This document shows positions 3,078-10,237 of a stretch of 64,000 bases of DNA, piece by piece. Position 1 is the stretch's first letter. Every line of letters starts with the position of its first letter. The notes beneath the pieces were generated by a model. That model was not told where the DNA came from and made no database searches. It saw only the letters and a list, made by a program, of their open reading frames with translations. Origin of the DNA: Pseudoxanthomonas indica (GTDB taxonomy: Bacteria > Pseudomonadota > Gammaproteobacteria > Xanthomonadales > Xanthomonadaceae); contig NZ_FUZV01000002.1 of the NCBI RefSeq assembly GCF_900167565.1, forward strand, positions 1,240,001 through 1,304,000. Reading direction: 5' to 3'. Both the position numbers and the translations under genes were made by a program.

Positions 3078-4808
3078 ATGAAGATGACCCGTCTGGTTCT
3101 TGCCCTTGGCCTGGCTTGCGCCGCCGTTTCGGCCCACGCCGAACAGCCGGCCCTGACCGCGATGACCGAGGACACCGGCGTGCCGCGCACGCCAGAACAG
3201 GCTGCGGTGGTCTTCGAACATGCCGACCTGGGCTTCAAGGTGCTGCCGGACAGCAAGCGGCTGGAAGGCGACGCCACCTTGACCTTCCGCGCCAGCGCAG
3301 CGCTGTCGAAGCTGGTCGTCGATCTGGATCGCAATTACCAGGTCAGCCGGGTCGAAGTGGATGGCCAGGCCGTGGCCACCGGCGGCTGGCGCAATCCCGA
3401 AGGCAAGATGAGCGTGGACCTGCCCAAGCCGGTGGCGAGCGGCCAGGTCGTCAAGCTGCGCATCGTCTATGCCGGCCAGCCGCACGTGGCCACGCGCGCG
3501 CCGTGGGATGGCGGCTTCGTCTGGGCCAAGGCACCGAGCGGCGAACCCTGGATTGCCTCGGCCGTACAGGGCGAGGGCTGCGATCTGTTCTGGCCCTGCA
3601 TCGATCACCCGCAAGGCGAACCGCTGCTGGTGGACCAGCACATCACGGTGCCGGCGCCATTGGTGGCCGCCGGCAATGGCGTGGCCATGGGCATGCAGGA
3701 AAAAGACGGCTGGCGTACCTGGCACTGGCGCACGCGCGACCCCAATACCTACGCCATTGCGCTGAACATTGGTCCGTACGAGGAAATGAAGGGCGAGTAC
3801 CACAGCCGTTTCGGCAACACGATCCCGCTGCGCTTCTGGCACCTGCGTGGGCGTGAGCAGCAGGCGCGCGAACTGTTTGCCGAATTTCCGCAGGTGCTGG
3901 ATTTCTTCGAACGCAACATCGGGCCGTATCCGTTCGGCGACGAGAAGATGGGCGTGGTGGAAACCCCGCACCTGGGCATGGAACACCAGACCATCAACGC
4001 CTACGGCAACGACTACAAGAAGGACAAGTACGGCTACGACTGGCTGCTGCAGCACGAGTTCGCCCACGAGTGGTTCGGCAACCAGCTGACCAACACCGAT
4101 TGGGACGACATGTGGCTGCACGAAGGGTTTGGCAGTTACATGCAGCCGCTGTATCTGCAGTACCTGCGCGGGGACATGGAGTACCACGCCGCGCTGCTGG
4201 ATCAGCGCGCCGCGCTGGCCAACAAGTTCCCGATCGTCTCGGGCAAGTCGCAGACCGAGGAGGCGGTGTACAACCGCGAGCATGGCCCGGGCCTGGACAT
4301 CTATTACAAGGGCTCGCTGATGCTGCACAGCCTGCGCAGCCTGATCGGCGATGAGGCGTTCTTCGCCAGCATCCGCCGCGCCGTCTACGGCACCGACACG
4401 CCCAAGCCGGGTCAGTTCAAGCCGCGCTATGTGTCCACGCGCGACTACATCGACATTGTCCGCCAGGTCACCGGCAAGGATTACGGCTGGTTCTTCGACG
4501 TCTACCTGTACCGCGCCGCCTTGCCGGAACTGCTGGCCGAGCGTGACGCCACCGGCCTGAGCCTGCGCTGGAAGACGCCGGACGCCTTGCCTTTCCCGCT
4601 GCCGGTGGACGTGCGCGTGGGCGGCAACGACGGCCCCATCCGTACCGTGGCGATGAGTGGCGGACAGGGTCACCTGGCGCTCGCCGCCGGCGAAACCTAC
4701 ACCCTGGACCCGCATTCCAAGCTGCTGCAGAGGCTGCCGCACATCGAGGCGTTCCAGCGCGATGCCGAAGCGCGCCGACAGGCCGCCGAGAGCGCCAGGA
4801 AGAAGTAA
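3078..4808 (+). CDS. Secreted M1-family zinc metallopeptidase (aminopeptidase N-like)
   Basis: A 576-residue gluzincin peptidase with a signal peptide ending AHA near residue 21. The zinc site HEFAHEW is at residues 326-332 with the third ligand E349 in LHEGF, the exact HExxH-18-E spacing of family M1. The exopeptidase loop reads GMEH (300-303) instead of the common GxMEN, and a catalytic tyrosine is likely in DIYYKGS. It lacks the long C-terminal HEAT region of PepN, so it belongs to the shorter M1 group. It probably removes N-terminal residues from peptides in the periplasm or outside. The borosin methyltransferase gene starts 115 bp downstream on the same strand, so a processing role is conceivable but unproven. 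Confidence 0.93.
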   Translation: MKMTRLVLALGLACAAVSAHAEQPALTAMTEDTGVPRTPEQAAVVFEHADLGFKVLPDSKRLEGDATLTFRASAALSKLVVDLDRNYQVSRVEVDGQAVATGGWRNPEGKMSVDLPKPVASGQVVKLRIVYAGQPHVATRAPWDGGFVWAKAPSGEPWIASAVQGEGCDLFWPCIDHPQGEPLLVDQHITVPAPLVAAGNGVAMGMQEKDGWRTWHWRTRDPNTYAIALNIGPYEEMKGEYHSRFGNTIPLRFWHLRGREQQARELFAEFPQVLDFFERNIGPYPFGDEKMGVVETPHLGMEHQTINAYGNDYKKDKYGYDWLLQHEFAHEWFGNQLTNTDWDDMWLHEGFGSYMQPLYLQYLRGDMEYHAALLDQRAALANKFPIVSGKSQTEEAVYNREHGPGLDIYYKGSLMLHSLRSLIGDEAFFASIRRAVYGTDTPKPGQFKPRYVSTRDYIDIVRQVTGKDYGWFFDVYLYRAALPELLAERDATGLSLRWKTPDALPFPLPVDVRVGGNDGPIRTVAMSGGQGHLALAAGETYTLDPHSKLLQRLPHIEAFQRDAEARRQAAESARKK

Positions 4809-4923: not shown

Positions 4924-5757
4924 ATGGATGTGCGAGGCAGTCTGGTATGCGTGGGAACGGGGATGATGCTGGGGGCACACCTGGGTCCGCGTGCGCGTCG
5001 CCATATCGAACACGCCGACGTGGTGTTTGTCGCCGTTTCCGATCCGCTGGTCGAGCTGTGGCTGCAACAGATGCACCCGGATGTGCGCAGCCTGCAGCCG
5101 CTGTACGCCGAGGATCGCTCGCGCCGCGACACCTACGAGGCGATGGTCGACGCCCTGCTGACGGAAGTGCGCGCCGGTCGCCACGTCGTCGGCGCGTTCT
5201 ACGGTCACCCGGGCGTGTTCGCGCGCGCTCCGCACGCGGCCATTGCGCAGGCCCGGGCCGAAGGCTTCGACGCGGTCATGGAGCCGGGCATCTCCGCCGA
5301 GGATTGCCTGTATGCGGACCTCGGCATCGATCCGGGCACCTTTGGCTGCCAGCACTACGAAGCCAGTCAGTTCATGCTGTTCCAGCGCCGCATCGATCCT
5401 TCCGCCTACCTGATCCTGTGGCAGGTGGGACTGGCCGGCGATCGCAGCCTGCGACGCACGCACACTTCGCCGGCCGAGCGCCAACTGCTGGTCGACCTGT
5501 TGGCCACCGATTATCCGTTGGACCATGAGGTGATCGCGTACGAAGCCGCGACCCTGCCCATCAGCCAGGTACGTCGCGAACACCTGATCCTGGCGACCCT
5601 GGCGCACGCGCGCCTGGAGCCACACACCACGCTGGTCGTACCGCCTTGCCGTCCGTTGCAGCCCAACCTGGCCTTGCGTGAAAAACTGGCCGCGCTGGAT
5701 CCTGGAAACACCGCTTCCGCACACCCTGCTGTCGCCATTCCGTCCGCCCTTACCTGA
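4924..5757 (+). CDS. Split borosin alpha-N-methyltransferase (SonM-like)
   Basis: A 277-residue SAM-dependent enzyme of the tetrapyrrole-methylase fold, predicted to N-methylate backbone amides of the precursor peptides encoded downstream. The open frame extends upstream into the peptidase gene; the ATG at 4924 gives MDVRGSLVCVGTGMMLG, the usual N-terminus. Seen: SAM-fold motifs GTG (11-13), YGHPGVF (93-99) and EPGISAED (120-127), and active-site candidates Y61, R67, Y71 and Y93, whose spacing equals that of Y66, R72, Y76 and Y98 in the fungal borosin enzyme OphMA. Unlike OphMA there is no fused core peptide, so this is the bacterial split type known from Shewanella SonM/SonA. True cobalamin or porphyrin methylases are unlikely given the neighbours and the EASQFM and YPLDHEV segments shared with SonM. 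Confidence 0.9.
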   Translation: MDVRGSLVCVGTGMMLGAHLGPRARRHIEHADVVFVAVSDPLVELWLQQMHPDVRSLQPLYAEDRSRRDTYEAMVDALLTEVRAGRHVVGAFYGHPGVFARAPHAAIAQARAEGFDAVMEPGISAEDCLYADLGIDPGTFGCQHYEASQFMLFQRRIDPSAYLILWQVGLAGDRSLRRTHTSPAERQLLVDLLATDYPLDHEVIAYEAATLPISQVRREHLILATLAHARLEPHTTLVVPPCRPLQPNLALREKLAALDPGNTASAHPAVAIPSALT

Positions 5758-5774
5758 CGAATCGAGGCCTCACC

Positions 5775-6083
5775 ATGTCCAATGCGATCCGGTTTCTTGA
5801 AAGTCTGGCCCAAGACCCTGCCTTTGCACGTCTGTCCGAGTCGCAGCGGCAAGAGCTGCTCGATCAACTCGATGTGGCGCCCGCCCAGCGCGATGCCTTG
5901 CGCGAGGGTGATGCCGAGTCGCTGAGCCGGCTGCTGGGGGGCAGGGCGCGGATGATGTGCCTGATCATCGCGCCTGGCGACGAGCCCGACAGCACCACGC
6001 CGCCGCCGGATACGGACGAGCCCGGCGAGGCGCCCGACGGTGAGCCGACCGGCTTGCCGGAGCCGGAGCGCGCCCCGGACTGA
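5775..6083 (+). CDS. Borosin precursor peptide A1 (SonA-like)
   Basis: A 102-residue peptide starting 17 bp after the methyltransferase, with GAGG 7 nt before the ATG. Residues 1-55 (MSNAIRFLESLAQDPAF...) form the small helical borosin-binding domain type seen in SonA. After a GGRAR linker comes a hydrophobic strand, MMCLIIAPGDE (60-70), at the position of the methylated core in SonA. The remaining 32 residues are a Pro/Asp/Glu-rich tail. N-methylation of residues in the LII segment is inferred. The peptide is longer than SonA because of the acidic tail. No protease or transporter gene is adjacent apart from the upstream M1 peptidase. Confidence 0.85.
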   Translation: MSNAIRFLESLAQDPAFARLSESQRQELLDQLDVAPAQRDALREGDAESLSRLLGGRARMMCLIIAPGDEPDSTTPPPDTDEPGEAPDGEPTGLPEPERAPD

Positions 6084-6105
6084 CGCTGTCCGAACGAGGC
6101 CGCCC

Positions 6106-8007
6106 TTGAATCCCACCGCCCAGGCGCCACCGCGCGCCACGCATCGCTGGCTGCGCCGGTGCGTGGCGCTGTGGCTGGCGTCAGGCGTCTGGCTGGCGCT
6201 GGCCACGCAGCCGGTGGTGGATCCTTCCGCCCCGGCCACCGCGCAGCAGCGCCAGATCGACGCCGAGATCGAGCGCACCGATCAACTGCGCAGCACCGAC
6301 GCCAAGGCTTTCGGCCAGGCCATCGAACAACTGCTGACCCTGCGCGCCCAGGCCAGTCCCCAGCAACAGGCCAGGATCGAATACCTGCAGGCGTACGGAC
6401 TGTCGTATGAAGGCCGCTACGACGCGGCCATCACCCATGCACGCAACGTCATCGACACCAGCGACGACGTCGACACGCAGTTCCTGGCCGGACTGCTCAT
6501 CGCCAACACGCATACCCTGCGCCGGCAGTTCGTCGATGCCCTGCGCCAACTCGACGCCACCGTGACCCTGCTGGACCAGGTCTCCACCCGCGAACTGCGT
6601 CACCGCGGCCTGTGGGTGGCGGCGTTCACCTACAGCGAAGTGGGCCAGCAGGCGCTGGGATTGACGTACGCCGAGCGCATCCTGGCGGACGAACCCACGC
6701 CACGCACGCGCTGCTTCACCCAGCAGGTGAAGTTTGATGCGATGCAGAGCATCAATCGCCTGCCCAGCGATGACCGGCCCTTGCAGGCGGCCATCGAGCA
6801 GTGCGAATCCCTGCATGAAATCGCCGCCGCCAACGCGGTGCGCATGACCTTGGCGAAGAAGTGGCTGGACGAAGGCAAGCACGCCGCCGCGGTGCAGATG
6901 CTGGAGAACCACCTGCAGGAAATCGAACAGACGCGATATGCGTACCTGATCGCGCAGATCAAAGCCATCCTGGCCGACCAGTTGCTCGAACGCGGGGATC
7001 TGGGCCAGGCGGAGGTGTATGCCAACGATGCCATCGCCCAGGGCAGCGCCGACAACAATGCCTACTCGCTGGCCAGTGCCTACCGCACCATGTTCCGCAT
7101 CGCAGAACTGCGCGATGACAGCGGCCAGGCGCTGGCCTGGTACCGGCGTTACGCCGAAGCGGACAAGACCTATCTCAACGAGGTCAAGGCGCGCGAACTG
7201 GCCTACCAGATGGTGCGCCAGGAAACGCTGGAAAAATCGCGGGTGATCCAGAAGCTGGACAGCCAGAACCAGGTGCTGAAGCTGCAGCGCAACCTGGAGC
7301 TGCAGTCGGCCAAGACCACCCGGCTCATCGTGGTCCTGCTGGTGCTGCTGCTGGCCAGCGCCATCTACTGGACCTACAAGACCAAGCGCGTACAGATGTC
7401 GCTCAAGCATCTGGCCGAAACCGACGCGCTCACCGACGTGTGCAATCGCCACCACTTCCATCAACTGGCCACCCATCACCTGCAGCAGAGCGAAAAGGCA
7501 GGGGCCGAGTGCGCCTTGATCATGTTCGACCTGGATCACTTCAAGTCCATCAATGATCACTTCGGTCACCCGGTGGGCGACTGGGTGCTCAAGCAGGTCG
7601 CGCAGGCATGCCGGACGTTTTGCCGCCGCATCGACGTACTCGGTCGCCTGGGCGGCGAGGAATTCGCCCTGTTGCTGGTGGGCTGCGATCTGCGCGCCGC
7701 CGGTCGCCTGGCCGAGGACATGCGCCTGCGCCTGGGCAATATCGACACCAGCCAGACCGGGCAGACCTTCGTGGTCTCGGCCAGCTTCGGCGTCGCCTCC
7801 ACGTCGCGCGAAGGCTTTGCCCTCGACCAGCTGCTGTCACGCGCCGATGACATGCTCTACCTGTCCAAGTCGCGCGGACGCAACCGGGTCAGTGGCCACC
7901 AGGGCGAGGACCCGCCGCCTCACCCGGGCAACGGGCAGGGCAGGGATCGCTCGGCGCCCGGCGGCCCCGCCGCTCCGGGCCATGCCGCCGCCCAAGGCTT
8001 GGGCTAG
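6106..8007 (+). CDS. TPR-transmembrane diguanylate cyclase DGC1
   Basis: A 633-residue sensor cyclase that should make c-di-GMP from two GTP. It starts at TTG 6106, preceded by GAGG at a 6-nt spacing and lying 22 bp after the A1 stop. Order: N-terminal signal/anchor segment (about 17-34), a periplasmic alpha-helical TPR region (about 50-380), one membrane helix (about 405-427, RLIVVLLVLLLAS), then a GGDEF domain. The active-site signature is GGEEF at 516-520, with an inhibitory RxxD site (RRID) five residues before it, so an active, feedback-controlled enzyme is expected. A Gly/Pro-rich tail ends the protein. It is a clear paralogue of the second cyclase of this locus. The periplasmic TPR domain could sense a peptide or protein; the borosin product is an attractive but untested ligand. 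Confidence 0.92.
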   Translation: MNPTAQAPPRATHRWLRRCVALWLASGVWLALATQPVVDPSAPATAQQRQIDAEIERTDQLRSTDAKAFGQAIEQLLTLRAQASPQQQARIEYLQAYGLSYEGRYDAAITHARNVIDTSDDVDTQFLAGLLIANTHTLRRQFVDALRQLDATVTLLDQVSTRELRHRGLWVAAFTYSEVGQQALGLTYAERILADEPTPRTRCFTQQVKFDAMQSINRLPSDDRPLQAAIEQCESLHEIAAANAVRMTLAKKWLDEGKHAAAVQMLENHLQEIEQTRYAYLIAQIKAILADQLLERGDLGQAEVYANDAIAQGSADNNAYSLASAYRTMFRIAELRDDSGQALAWYRRYAEADKTYLNEVKARELAYQMVRQETLEKSRVIQKLDSQNQVLKLQRNLELQSAKTTRLIVVLLVLLLASAIYWTYKTKRVQMSLKHLAETDALTDVCNRHHFHQLATHHLQQSEKAGAECALIMFDLDHFKSINDHFGHPVGDWVLKQVAQACRTFCRRIDVLGRLGGEEFALLLVGCDLRAAGRLAEDMRLRLGNIDTSQTGQTFVVSASFGVASTSREGFALDQLLSRADDMLYLSKSRGRNRVSGHQGEDPPPHPGNGQGRDRSAPGGPAAPGHAAAQGLG

Positions 8008-8045
8008 AATCGTTACGCAAATCACATCCGGCGGGGAAGCCGGAT
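8005..8045 (+). promoter_or_regulatory. Hairpin leader before precursor A2, with possible -10 box
   Basis: A perfect 7-bp stem ATCCGGC/GCCGGAT (8026-8045, 6-nt loop) lies between DGC1 and the A2 gene. TAGAAT at 8005-8010 overlaps the DGC1 stop and could be a -10 box, but no -35 is visible. The hairpin may set precursor expression or mRNA ends within the operon. Confidence 0.35.
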
Positions 8046-8067
8046 CACCAACCCAAGGGGATTGACC

Positions 8068-8370
8068 ATGTCGAACACCGTTCGTTTTCTGGAAGCCATT
8101 GCACAGGATCCTGCACTGGCCCAATTGTCGACTGCCGAGCGCGAAGCGCTGATGGCCTCGTTTGGCCTGTCCGACGATGAGCGAGCCGCGGTCCGCAATC
8201 TCGACGCGTCCGGCCTCAGCCAGCTGTTGCAGGGACGCAGCAAGATGAGTGCGTTGCAGTTCCCGGGCGATGGCGACGAACCGCAGCGCGATGACGAACC
8301 GCAGCGTGACGATGATTCGCCGGCAGACGATGACGACGACAAGTCGATCCGCCAAGCGTCGCTGCACTGA
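8068..8370 (+). CDS. Borosin precursor peptide A2 (SonA-like)
   Basis: A 100-residue paralogue of A1, starting at ATG 8068 with AAGGGG 7 nt upstream. The leader domain (MSNTVRFLEAIAQDPAL, residues 1-17, helical to about 55) is strongly conserved with A1, including FLExxAQDPA. The putative core differs: KMSALQFPGDGDEP (59-72) in place of the LII strand. The tail is very acidic and holds a duplicated DEPQRD hexapeptide and a run of aspartates. The single methyltransferase upstream presumably serves both peptides. Methylation positions cannot be read from sequence. Confidence 0.82.
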   Translation: MSNTVRFLEAIAQDPALAQLSTAEREALMASFGLSDDERAAVRNLDASGLSQLLQGRSKMSALQFPGDGDEPQRDDEPQRDDDSPADDDDDKSIRQASLH

Positions 8371-8389
8371 GCACGACGCGCGCAAGGCA

Positions 8390-10237
8390 ATGGCCGTGAA
8401 CAGGCGCCTCGGCAGGCAGGCAGGAGGGCTACTGGCCCTCCTGCTGCTTGCGTGCAACTGCCTGGCCGCGCCCGCGGTGAGCGAACTGCTGGAGCAGGCC
8501 GAGACCCTGCGCAGTTCCGATCCCGCGCGCTTTGATGCGCTGCTGACCCAGGTCAGCCAGCGCAAGCAAGAGCTCAGCAGCGCACAAGGGCAGCAACTGG
8601 CCTATCTGCAGGCTTACCGGCTGGCCTTTGCCGGCGACTACGACAACGCGATTCCGCGGCTGAAGAACCTGATTGCCGATTCACCGGACAGCGATACGCG
8701 CTTCCGGGCCGGCGCGCTGCTGGTCAACATCTATACCAAGAGCCGCCAGTTCGCCGACGGCCTGCGCCAGTTGGGCGACACCCTGGTCCATATCGATCAG
8801 GTCCACAACAGCGACATCCGCACCCATGGCTTGATCGAGGCGGCCTACATCCACAACGAAGTGGGCCAGTACCGGCTGGGCCTGCACTACGCCGAACGCC
8901 TCCTGGCCGCCGAGCTTCCGCCGCGCACGCGCTGTTTCGCCGAGTACCTGCGCTACGACGCGATGCAGAACCTGGCCGTGCTGCCGACCTCGGATGCGCC
9001 GATGGAAGAGGCCATCCGCACCTGCGAAAGCATCGGCGAAGTCGTGCTGGTCAATTACGTCCGCACCACCCTGGCCCGCAAATGGGTGGCCGAGCGCAAA
9101 CGTGACGCCGCCATTGTCCTGCTGCAGCGGCATTTGCCGGAGGTGGAGCGCGCGCGCTATCCGTTCCTGACCGTGCAGTTCAAATCGCTGCTCGGCGAGC
9201 TGATGTTCGAAAAGGGCGACATGGCGGCGGCGGACAGCTATGCCTCCGAGACCGTGGCCCTGAGCAGCGCCGTGGGCAACACCTACGCCCTGGTCAGCGC
9301 CTATCGCACGCTTTACCAGGTGGCCGAGCGCCGTCGCGACGACGAGACTGCGCTGGTCTACTACCGCCGCTATGCCGAGGCCGACAAGGCCTACCTCAAC
9401 GAGGTCAAGGCGCGCGAACTGGCGTACCAGATCGTCCGCCAGGAAACGCTGGAGAAGTCGCAGCAGATCCAGCGCCTGGATAGCCAGAACCAGCTGCTGC
9501 AGCTGCAGCGCAAACTGGAACTCAAGTCCGGCCAGAACACCCGCCTGATCATCGTGCTGCTGGTGCTGCTGCTGGCCAGCATCGCCTTCTGGGCCTATCG
9601 CACCAAGCGCACGCAGATTTCGTTCAAGCGCCTGGCCGAGACCGACGCGCTGACCGGCGCCTGCAACCGCAGCCATTTCACCCAGCGCGCCGAACGGCTG
9701 CTCGCACAGGCGGGGCGCACCGGCGAGGAAGTGGCGTTGGTGATGTTCGATCTGGACCACTTCAAGAACATCAATGATCGCCACGGCCACGCGGCGGGCG
9801 ACTGGGTGCTGCGGCGGGTGGTGGAACTGGGTCGTGGGCTGTCGCGCAAGGTCGATCTGATCGGCCGGCTCGGCGGCGAAGAGTTCGCCATGCTGATCTA
9901 CGCCTGCGACTTGCCCTCGGCGACCCGCGTCGCCGACGAATGCCGCGCCCGTATCGCCGCCCTCGACTCGCGCGAAACCGGCCACGTCTTCACTGCCACC
10001 GCCAGCTTCGGCATCGCCAGTACCGCGCAGGGCGGGCTGGAACTGGCGCGGCTGATGTCATTGGCCGATCGCATGCTGTACCGGGCCAAGCACGAAGGCC
10101 GCAATCGCATCTGCGTGTACGAAGGCGGCTATGGCCTGACCGACCACTCGGCGCCGGCCTCCAACGACGGCCTGGTGGAAGAGACCTCGCCGCCGCGCAA
10201 GCCGACCGACGCCGGGGTCGAGCGTCTGGGCACCTGA
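8390..10237 (+). CDS. TPR-transmembrane diguanylate cyclase DGC2
   Basis: A 615-residue paralogue of DGC1 with the same architecture: signal peptide (about 12-25), periplasmic TPR-like helices, one membrane helix (about 385-407, RLIIVLLVLLLAS), GGDEF domain with GGEEF at 495-499 and an RxxD I-site (RKVD) before it. ATG 8390 has AAGG only 2 nt upstream; GTG 8396 is an equally good start. The upstream part of the open frame overlaps A2 in another frame and is not real. The stretch YLNEVKARELAYQ(I/M)VRQETLEKS just before the membrane helix is almost unchanged between the two cyclases, pointing to a recent tandem duplication of the precursor-cyclase module. Confidence 0.92.
   Translation: MAVNRRLGRQAGGLLALLLLACNCLAAPAVSELLEQAETLRSSDPARFDALLTQVSQRKQELSSAQGQQLAYLQAYRLAFAGDYDNAIPRLKNLIADSPDSDTRFRAGALLVNIYTKSRQFADGLRQLGDTLVHIDQVHNSDIRTHGLIEAAYIHNEVGQYRLGLHYAERLLAAELPPRTRCFAEYLRYDAMQNLAVLPTSDAPMEEAIRTCESIGEVVLVNYVRTTLARKWVAERKRDAAIVLLQRHLPEVERARYPFLTVQFKSLLGELMFEKGDMAAADSYASETVALSSAVGNTYALVSAYRTLYQVAERRRDDETALVYYRRYAEADKAYLNEVKARELAYQIVRQETLEKSQQIQRLDSQNQLLQLQRKLELKSGQNTRLIIVLLVLLLASIAFWAYRTKRTQISFKRLAETDALTGACNRSHFTQRAERLLAQAGRTGEEVALVMFDLDHFKNINDRHGHAAGDWVLRRVVELGRGLSRKVDLIGRLGGEEFAMLIYACDLPSATRVADECRARIAALDSRETGHVFTATASFGIASTAQGGLELARLMSLADRMLYRAKHEGRNRICVYEGGYGLTDHSAPASNDGLVEETSPPRKPTDAGVERLGT

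Follow-up and report, generated by a model that had tools for sequence, protein, structure and literature searches.

The closest described relative of the system analyzed here is the type IV split borosin pair SonM/SonA of Shewanella oneidensis, in which the precursor SonA carries a five-helix binding domain (residues 1-53) and is methylated at L63/I65 (PMC8429565). The paper that introduced type IV split borosins tied no pathway among them to a final natural product, and it describes backbone N-methylation as favoring membrane permeability (PMC8429565). We examined a 64,000-nucleotide stretch of the Pseudoxanthomonas indica genome (contig NZ_FUZV01000002.1, positions 1,240,001 to 1,304,000; here, the window) that holds five genes on one strand at 4924-10237, namely M, A1, D1, A2, and D2, separated by gaps of 17, 22, 60, and 19 nucleotides. 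The tight same-strand order of enzyme, precursor, cyclase, precursor, and cyclase given in the initial annotation was recovered. In common with SonM/SonA, the locus has a methyltransferase of the same family with the same active-site residues and a separate precursor with a putative five-helix binding domain; it differs in having two units of a precursor (A) and a sensor cyclase (D) and in a different core with an acidic tail. We propose that the cluster is a peptide-signaling system in which M methylates A and the TPR domain of the neighboring D reads A or its peptide, a reading to which we assign a probability of roughly 45%. The features of the locus are as follows.

4924-5757, + strand: M, predicted borosin-type peptide backbone N-methyltransferase, 277 amino acids (SonM 7ltc, E 3e-82; TP_methylase PF00590)
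5775-6083, + strand: A1, putative precursor, 102 amino acids, with a binding domain at residues 1-53, a hydrophobic core, and an acidic tail
5943-5984, + strand: A1 candidate core, residues 57-70, RARMMCLIIAPGDE, chosen from sequence, with methylation inferred
6106-8007, + strand: D1, predicted membrane TPR-sensor diguanylate cyclase, 633 amino acids (GGDEF, E 3e-40)
6256-7227, + strand: D1 sensor domain (sensor profile, E 3e-119)
7324-7374, + strand: D1 predicted transmembrane segment, residues 407-423, by hydropathy
7414-7887, + strand: D1 GGDEF domain, with GGEEF and RxxD
8068-8370, + strand: A2, putative second precursor, 100 amino acids (family profile, of which A2 is itself a member)
8236-8277, + strand: A2 candidate core, residues 57-70, RSKMSALQFPGDGD, no cysteine, identified and qualified in the same way as that of A1
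8390-10237, + strand: D2, predicted membrane TPR-sensor diguanylate cyclase, 615 amino acids (GGDEF, E 1e-38), with an N-terminal hydrophobic segment
8480-9448, + strand: D2 sensor domain, with C182 and C212 (sensor profile, E 2e-127, D2 being among the profile members)
9545-9595, + strand: D2 predicted transmembrane segment, residues 386-402, by hydropathy
9635-10108, + strand: D2 GGDEF domain, with GGEEF and RxxD

The D1 start is a TTG of our choosing; the frame as listed begins at a GTG at 6040. E values obtained with our scripts refer to small sequence sets. Because D1 and D2 are 50% identical, and A1 and A2 47% identical across 72 residues, the locus fits a duplicated A-D unit. A scan for promoters and terminators returned signals about equal to those of shuffled controls or fewer.

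M matches SonM across residues 5-256 (E 3e-82) and OphMA-type enzymes at E values of 1e-43 to 1e-48. Its residues Y61, R67, Y71, and Y93 align with Y58, R67, Y71, and Y93 of SonM, all four of which were tested in that enzyme (PMC8429565), and their spacing equals that of OphMA Y66, R72, Y76, and Y98 when compared by number, with residue names taken from PDB titles. All four are invariant across a 17-sequence alignment. Pfam and NCBIfam label M only generically. M is encoded separately from A1 and A2, as in a split borosin, and is single in its genome, where the sole other match is partial (131 residues, 37% identity). The comparison therefore supports M as a SonM/OphMA-type borosin N-methyltransferase of the split type, and the OphMA-like residue spacing seen by the initial annotation holds. 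The M domain also occurs in other protein contexts: in a 1177-residue open frame with a long C-terminal part (L158, 2343-5873), in a 459-residue open frame with a C-terminal extension (L135, 1493-2869), and as tandem domains of a single 545-residue protein that follows a short precursor and precedes a TIR-TPR protein (L144, 3829-5463 and 1241-3907). Four genomes from one family, f8, of the order (G028, G148, G187, and G192) carry M genes with one or two internal stop codons.

The precursors were more difficult to detect by sequence. A1 alone retrieved no matches from the PDB; A2 alone retrieved SonA at E values of 0.3-0.9, ranked under unrelated YfhM rows (0.17). A profile built from 32 family precursors matched the SonA binding domain at an E value of 4e-5, and the same profile matched a designed repeat protein about equally well, through many weak stretches. 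The AlphaFold2 model of A1 consists of five helices spanning residues 3-53, followed by a tail of lower confidence (predicted local distance difference test score [pLDDT] 61-77). In a Foldseek search with this model, SonA/OphMA proteins ranked at the top and made up 38/49 rows, none of which fell below E 0.69; these E values being nonsignificant, the match was weighed by rank, TM-score, and the profile. By eye, most of the listed precursors have a short hydrophobic core and then an acidic tail after the binding domain. Taken together, profile and model support A1 and A2 as precursors with a SonA-like borosin-binding domain. L63 and I65 of A1, and L63 and F65 of A2, carry the residue numbers methylated in SonA, and by this analogy A1 and A2 may be methylated near residues 63/65. 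The earlier proposal that both peptides are substrates thus gains a candidate binding domain, with methylation itself still drawn from SonA.

D1 and D2 match GGDEF strongly and carry GGEEF together with an RxxD I-site, the motifs of a diguanylate cyclase, and are thus predicted to make cyclic diguanylate (c-di-GMP). Among 122 sensor proteins of the family, the GG(D/E)EF motif is present in 121 and the I-site in 66. Pfam detects the TPR part of D1 and D2 weakly. For the D2 sensor, AlphaFold2 gives a confident all-helical repeat model (pLDDT 96.7) that resembles the TPR peptide receptors Rap and NprR and has the TPR fold of the RRNPP family. Rap-Phr, NprR-NprX, and other RRNPP receptors are cytoplasmic, with phosphatase or DNA-binding output. 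In contrast, the D sensor is predicted to be periplasmic, with GGDEF or kinase output: hydropathy predicts a membrane segment in 122/122 sensor proteins, and a hydrophobic stretch falls within the sensor domain in 13/122. Membership of RRNPP (Rap/NprR/PlcR) was therefore rejected, since both location and output differ. Two sensor cysteines (C182 and C212 of D2) are kept in all 122 sequences. A search of the P. indica genome with D2 gave 26 matches, 24 of which covered only residue 368 onward, that is, the GGDEF part. Because of this, and because the sensor tracks M in the genome surveys described below, it looks like a borosin-tied type and not a common TPR-GGDEF protein.

The initial annotation had proposed a neighborhood analysis to determine whether the cyclases are conserved beside the precursors, and they are. 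In 65/68 related loci from named records, M, A, and D occur in this order on one strand, by which chance adjacency was rejected. These 68 loci were gathered by patterns from the window's own M and represent its nearer relatives; two loci of the P. indica genome itself (L001 and L002) were left out, although L001 is counted in the 69-locus gene tallies below. Of the three exceptions, two stretches end early and one (L063) lacks A by profile, yet has a short acidic-tailed frame visible by eye. The A profile was iterated from the 68 loci themselves, and five of them (L018, L025, L026, L035, and L037) match it chiefly through core and tail. Each precursor having its own cyclase, as first described, holds at this locus and fails in some related ones.

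Genome surveys gave a similar picture. M was found in 95 of 200 genomes from the order and the sensor in at least 107; at least 91 had both, 16 the sensor only, at most 4 M only, and 89 neither. These surveys scored part of the first-look candidates, the count of genomes with M and no sensor being an upper bound, and co-occurrence was assessed with Fisher's test, which ignores shared ancestry. For at least 95 of 124 M matches, a sensor lay no more than 3 kb away, on the downstream side in 80 cases and on the upstream side in 15, with 0/95 on the opposite strand; the remaining 29, some fused loci included, had no sensor among the matches listed. A survey of the class (369 genomes) found the sensor in three, every one with M, and M in nine. 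M was present in 15 of 398 genomes of the phylum. Twelve stretches from ten of these phylum genomes comprised nine with sensor-GGDEF beside M (one of them, L151, with A and D oriented divergently to M), one with a TPR kinase, and two with neither. Among loci without the TPR sensor, one encodes a 7TMR-DISM-GGDEF protein close to its A-M pair (L145, 5948-7771), and in two others MFS transporter genes adjoin M (L139, 5898-6812; L140, 4523-5764).

Four kinds of evidence point to A-D as a functional unit. Pairs without M constitute the first: the survey gave 33 stretches whose sensors are not near an M, and in 16 of them an A-type gene immediately precedes a sensor, ten at E values of 2e-5 or better and six weaker, and the other 17 have none by profile. 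Some of these sensors are close to the end of their contig, and M may fall outside it; one of the ten strong cases (L105) is at a contig end, with M possibly missing, and two of the six weaker ones (L115 and L118) lie by M fragments. Fusions are the second, with sensor, GGDEF, and M forming a single protein of 846-863 residues directly downstream of a SonA-like precursor in four loci (L130, L131, L132, and L133). Kinase variants are the third: a TPR region followed by a hybrid histidine kinase stands beside a SonA-like precursor in L137 (5871-9128), L143 (5777-8746), and L157 (1275-4502). The sensor profile spans nearly the whole domain in the L143 kinase and part of it in L137 and L157, and L143 additionally holds a sensor-GGDEF gene. 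Finally, L150 contains a close SonM homolog (E 1e-135) and a SonA homolog (E 7e-26), the latter adjoined on the same strand by a TPR-GGDEF gene; L153 and L154, from the same bacterial family, are arranged similarly. The tie to c-di-GMP drawn by the initial annotation is strengthened by the conserved neighborhood and the sensor-GGDEF-M fusions, but was too narrow, as some loci use histidine kinases.

In the proposed mechanism, M would methylate the backbone of A1 and A2 in the cytoplasm, a protease would free the core, and the core, or whole A, would get to the periplasm. There, the TPR groove of the adjacent D would bind the core or A, and binding would alter the c-di-GMP output of D inside the cell. 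The N-methylated backbone may ease membrane passage of the core, and a single M could serve several A-D pairs. We infer all steps beyond the homology of M and A to SonM and SonA. That the peptides are likely signals and not antibiotics is read from the recurrence of the M-A-D layout across many bacteria. More tentatively, the system may be one case of a widespread form of Gram-negative signaling, in which ribosomal peptides, made able to cross membranes by backbone N-methylation, are ligands of dedicated periplasmic TPR receptors with an exchangeable cytoplasmic output, either a cyclase or a hybrid kinase. In that case split borosins, among them SonA, would serve as pheromones or as messengers within the cell and not as antibiotics.

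Two results weigh against recognition of the peptide by the periplasmic sensor. Copy numbers of A and D are unequal in some loci, and, as the strongest such result, core-sensor co-variation failed as support for direct recognition. Across 83 pairs (88 minus L032 and the four fused loci), core distances tracked GGDEF distances (partial r of 0.26 to 0.32) and not sensor distances (-0.04 to 0.08). Because core differences follow GGDEF differences, this analysis favors contact on the cytoplasmic side, with A as a regulatory partner whose M-modified form would dock from inside the cell on the GGDEF domain of D, or on its membrane-proximal helix, and set its activity, leaving the TPR domain to sense another envelope cue. 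Such a partnership is consistent with the predicted cytoplasmic location of A, M, and GGDEF and with the fusion of M behind GGDEF in four loci. However, three loci keep the TPR region beside A with a histidine kinase replacing GGDEF, and the short cores give noisy distances that still contain shared ancestry; overall, we consider cytoplasmic contact somewhat unlikely.

A role with no A-D contact was also weighed: the borosin made by the operon would be secreted for some other purpose, and D would do no more than make its production depend, by way of c-di-GMP, on a signal from the envelope. The operon-like layout with enzyme genes, the MFS genes adjoining M in the two sensor-less loci L139 and L140, and a possible redox role for two invariant cysteines are in keeping with this explanation, which is nevertheless rather doubtful given that A-D pairs persist apart from M and that the output domain is exchangeable. 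Drift of M to a different tetrapyrrole-methylase-like reaction, leaving A unmethylated, appears very improbable: the activity of M is assigned by homology and its database names are generic, but the match to SonM, the four kept residues, and the adjacent precursors with binding domains all argue otherwise. The preferred reading remains peptide recognition by the TPR domain of the neighboring D.

With respect to prior work, the SonM paper (PMC8429565) has no mention of GGDEF, cyclase, or c-di-GMP in its main text. The initial annotation knew of no described borosin system with cyclases, which proved too sweeping: the legend of Fig. 1 in a 2024 paper (PMC11395268) lists a GGDEF domain among borosin architectures, in a figure that cites Imani 2022 and Cho 2022 for types V-X. 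Because of this legend, the bare borosin-GGDEF association is not wholly new. An open literature search combining borosin with diguanylate cyclase or c-di-GMP returned no paper, the combination with GGDEF returned one, and within the accessible literature no paper was found that reads borosins as receptor ligands.

Two further gene families recur in the related loci. A GNAT acetyltransferase gene lies on the strand of M in 55/69 loci, within about 2 kb of M in 54; in most cases it immediately precedes M or sits in the M-A interval, which suggests an acetylation step. A pepsin-like aspartic protease gene is found upstream of M on the same strand in 12/69 loci (L009, L012, L017, L036, L049, L050, L055, L057, L061, L062, L064, and L065), with PF00026 detected in the three members tested. 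The acetyltransferase and protease could cap or cut the peptide. The protease shares PF00026 with the shewasins, bacterial pepsins (PMC4814920), a likeness at the family level; none of six gene-neighborhood terms looked for occurs in the text of that paper. Every other family occurs in at most 7/68 loci. When the window was searched with the GNAT and protease family profiles, neither was found. Upstream of M, the window does have a GNAT gene (2489-2989) and an M1-family peptidase gene (3078-4808); neither matched the profiles from the related loci, and both were discounted as parts of the system. Two opposite-strand clusters over M and D were taken as antisense frames.

The neighborhood described here gives type IV split borosins a testable role as ligands of membrane receptors, and a group of TPR-GGDEF proteins gains a candidate ligand encoded next door. 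The pepsin-like proteases beside M in some loci likewise gain a candidate substrate, as bacterial pepsins may use borosin precursors as substrates.

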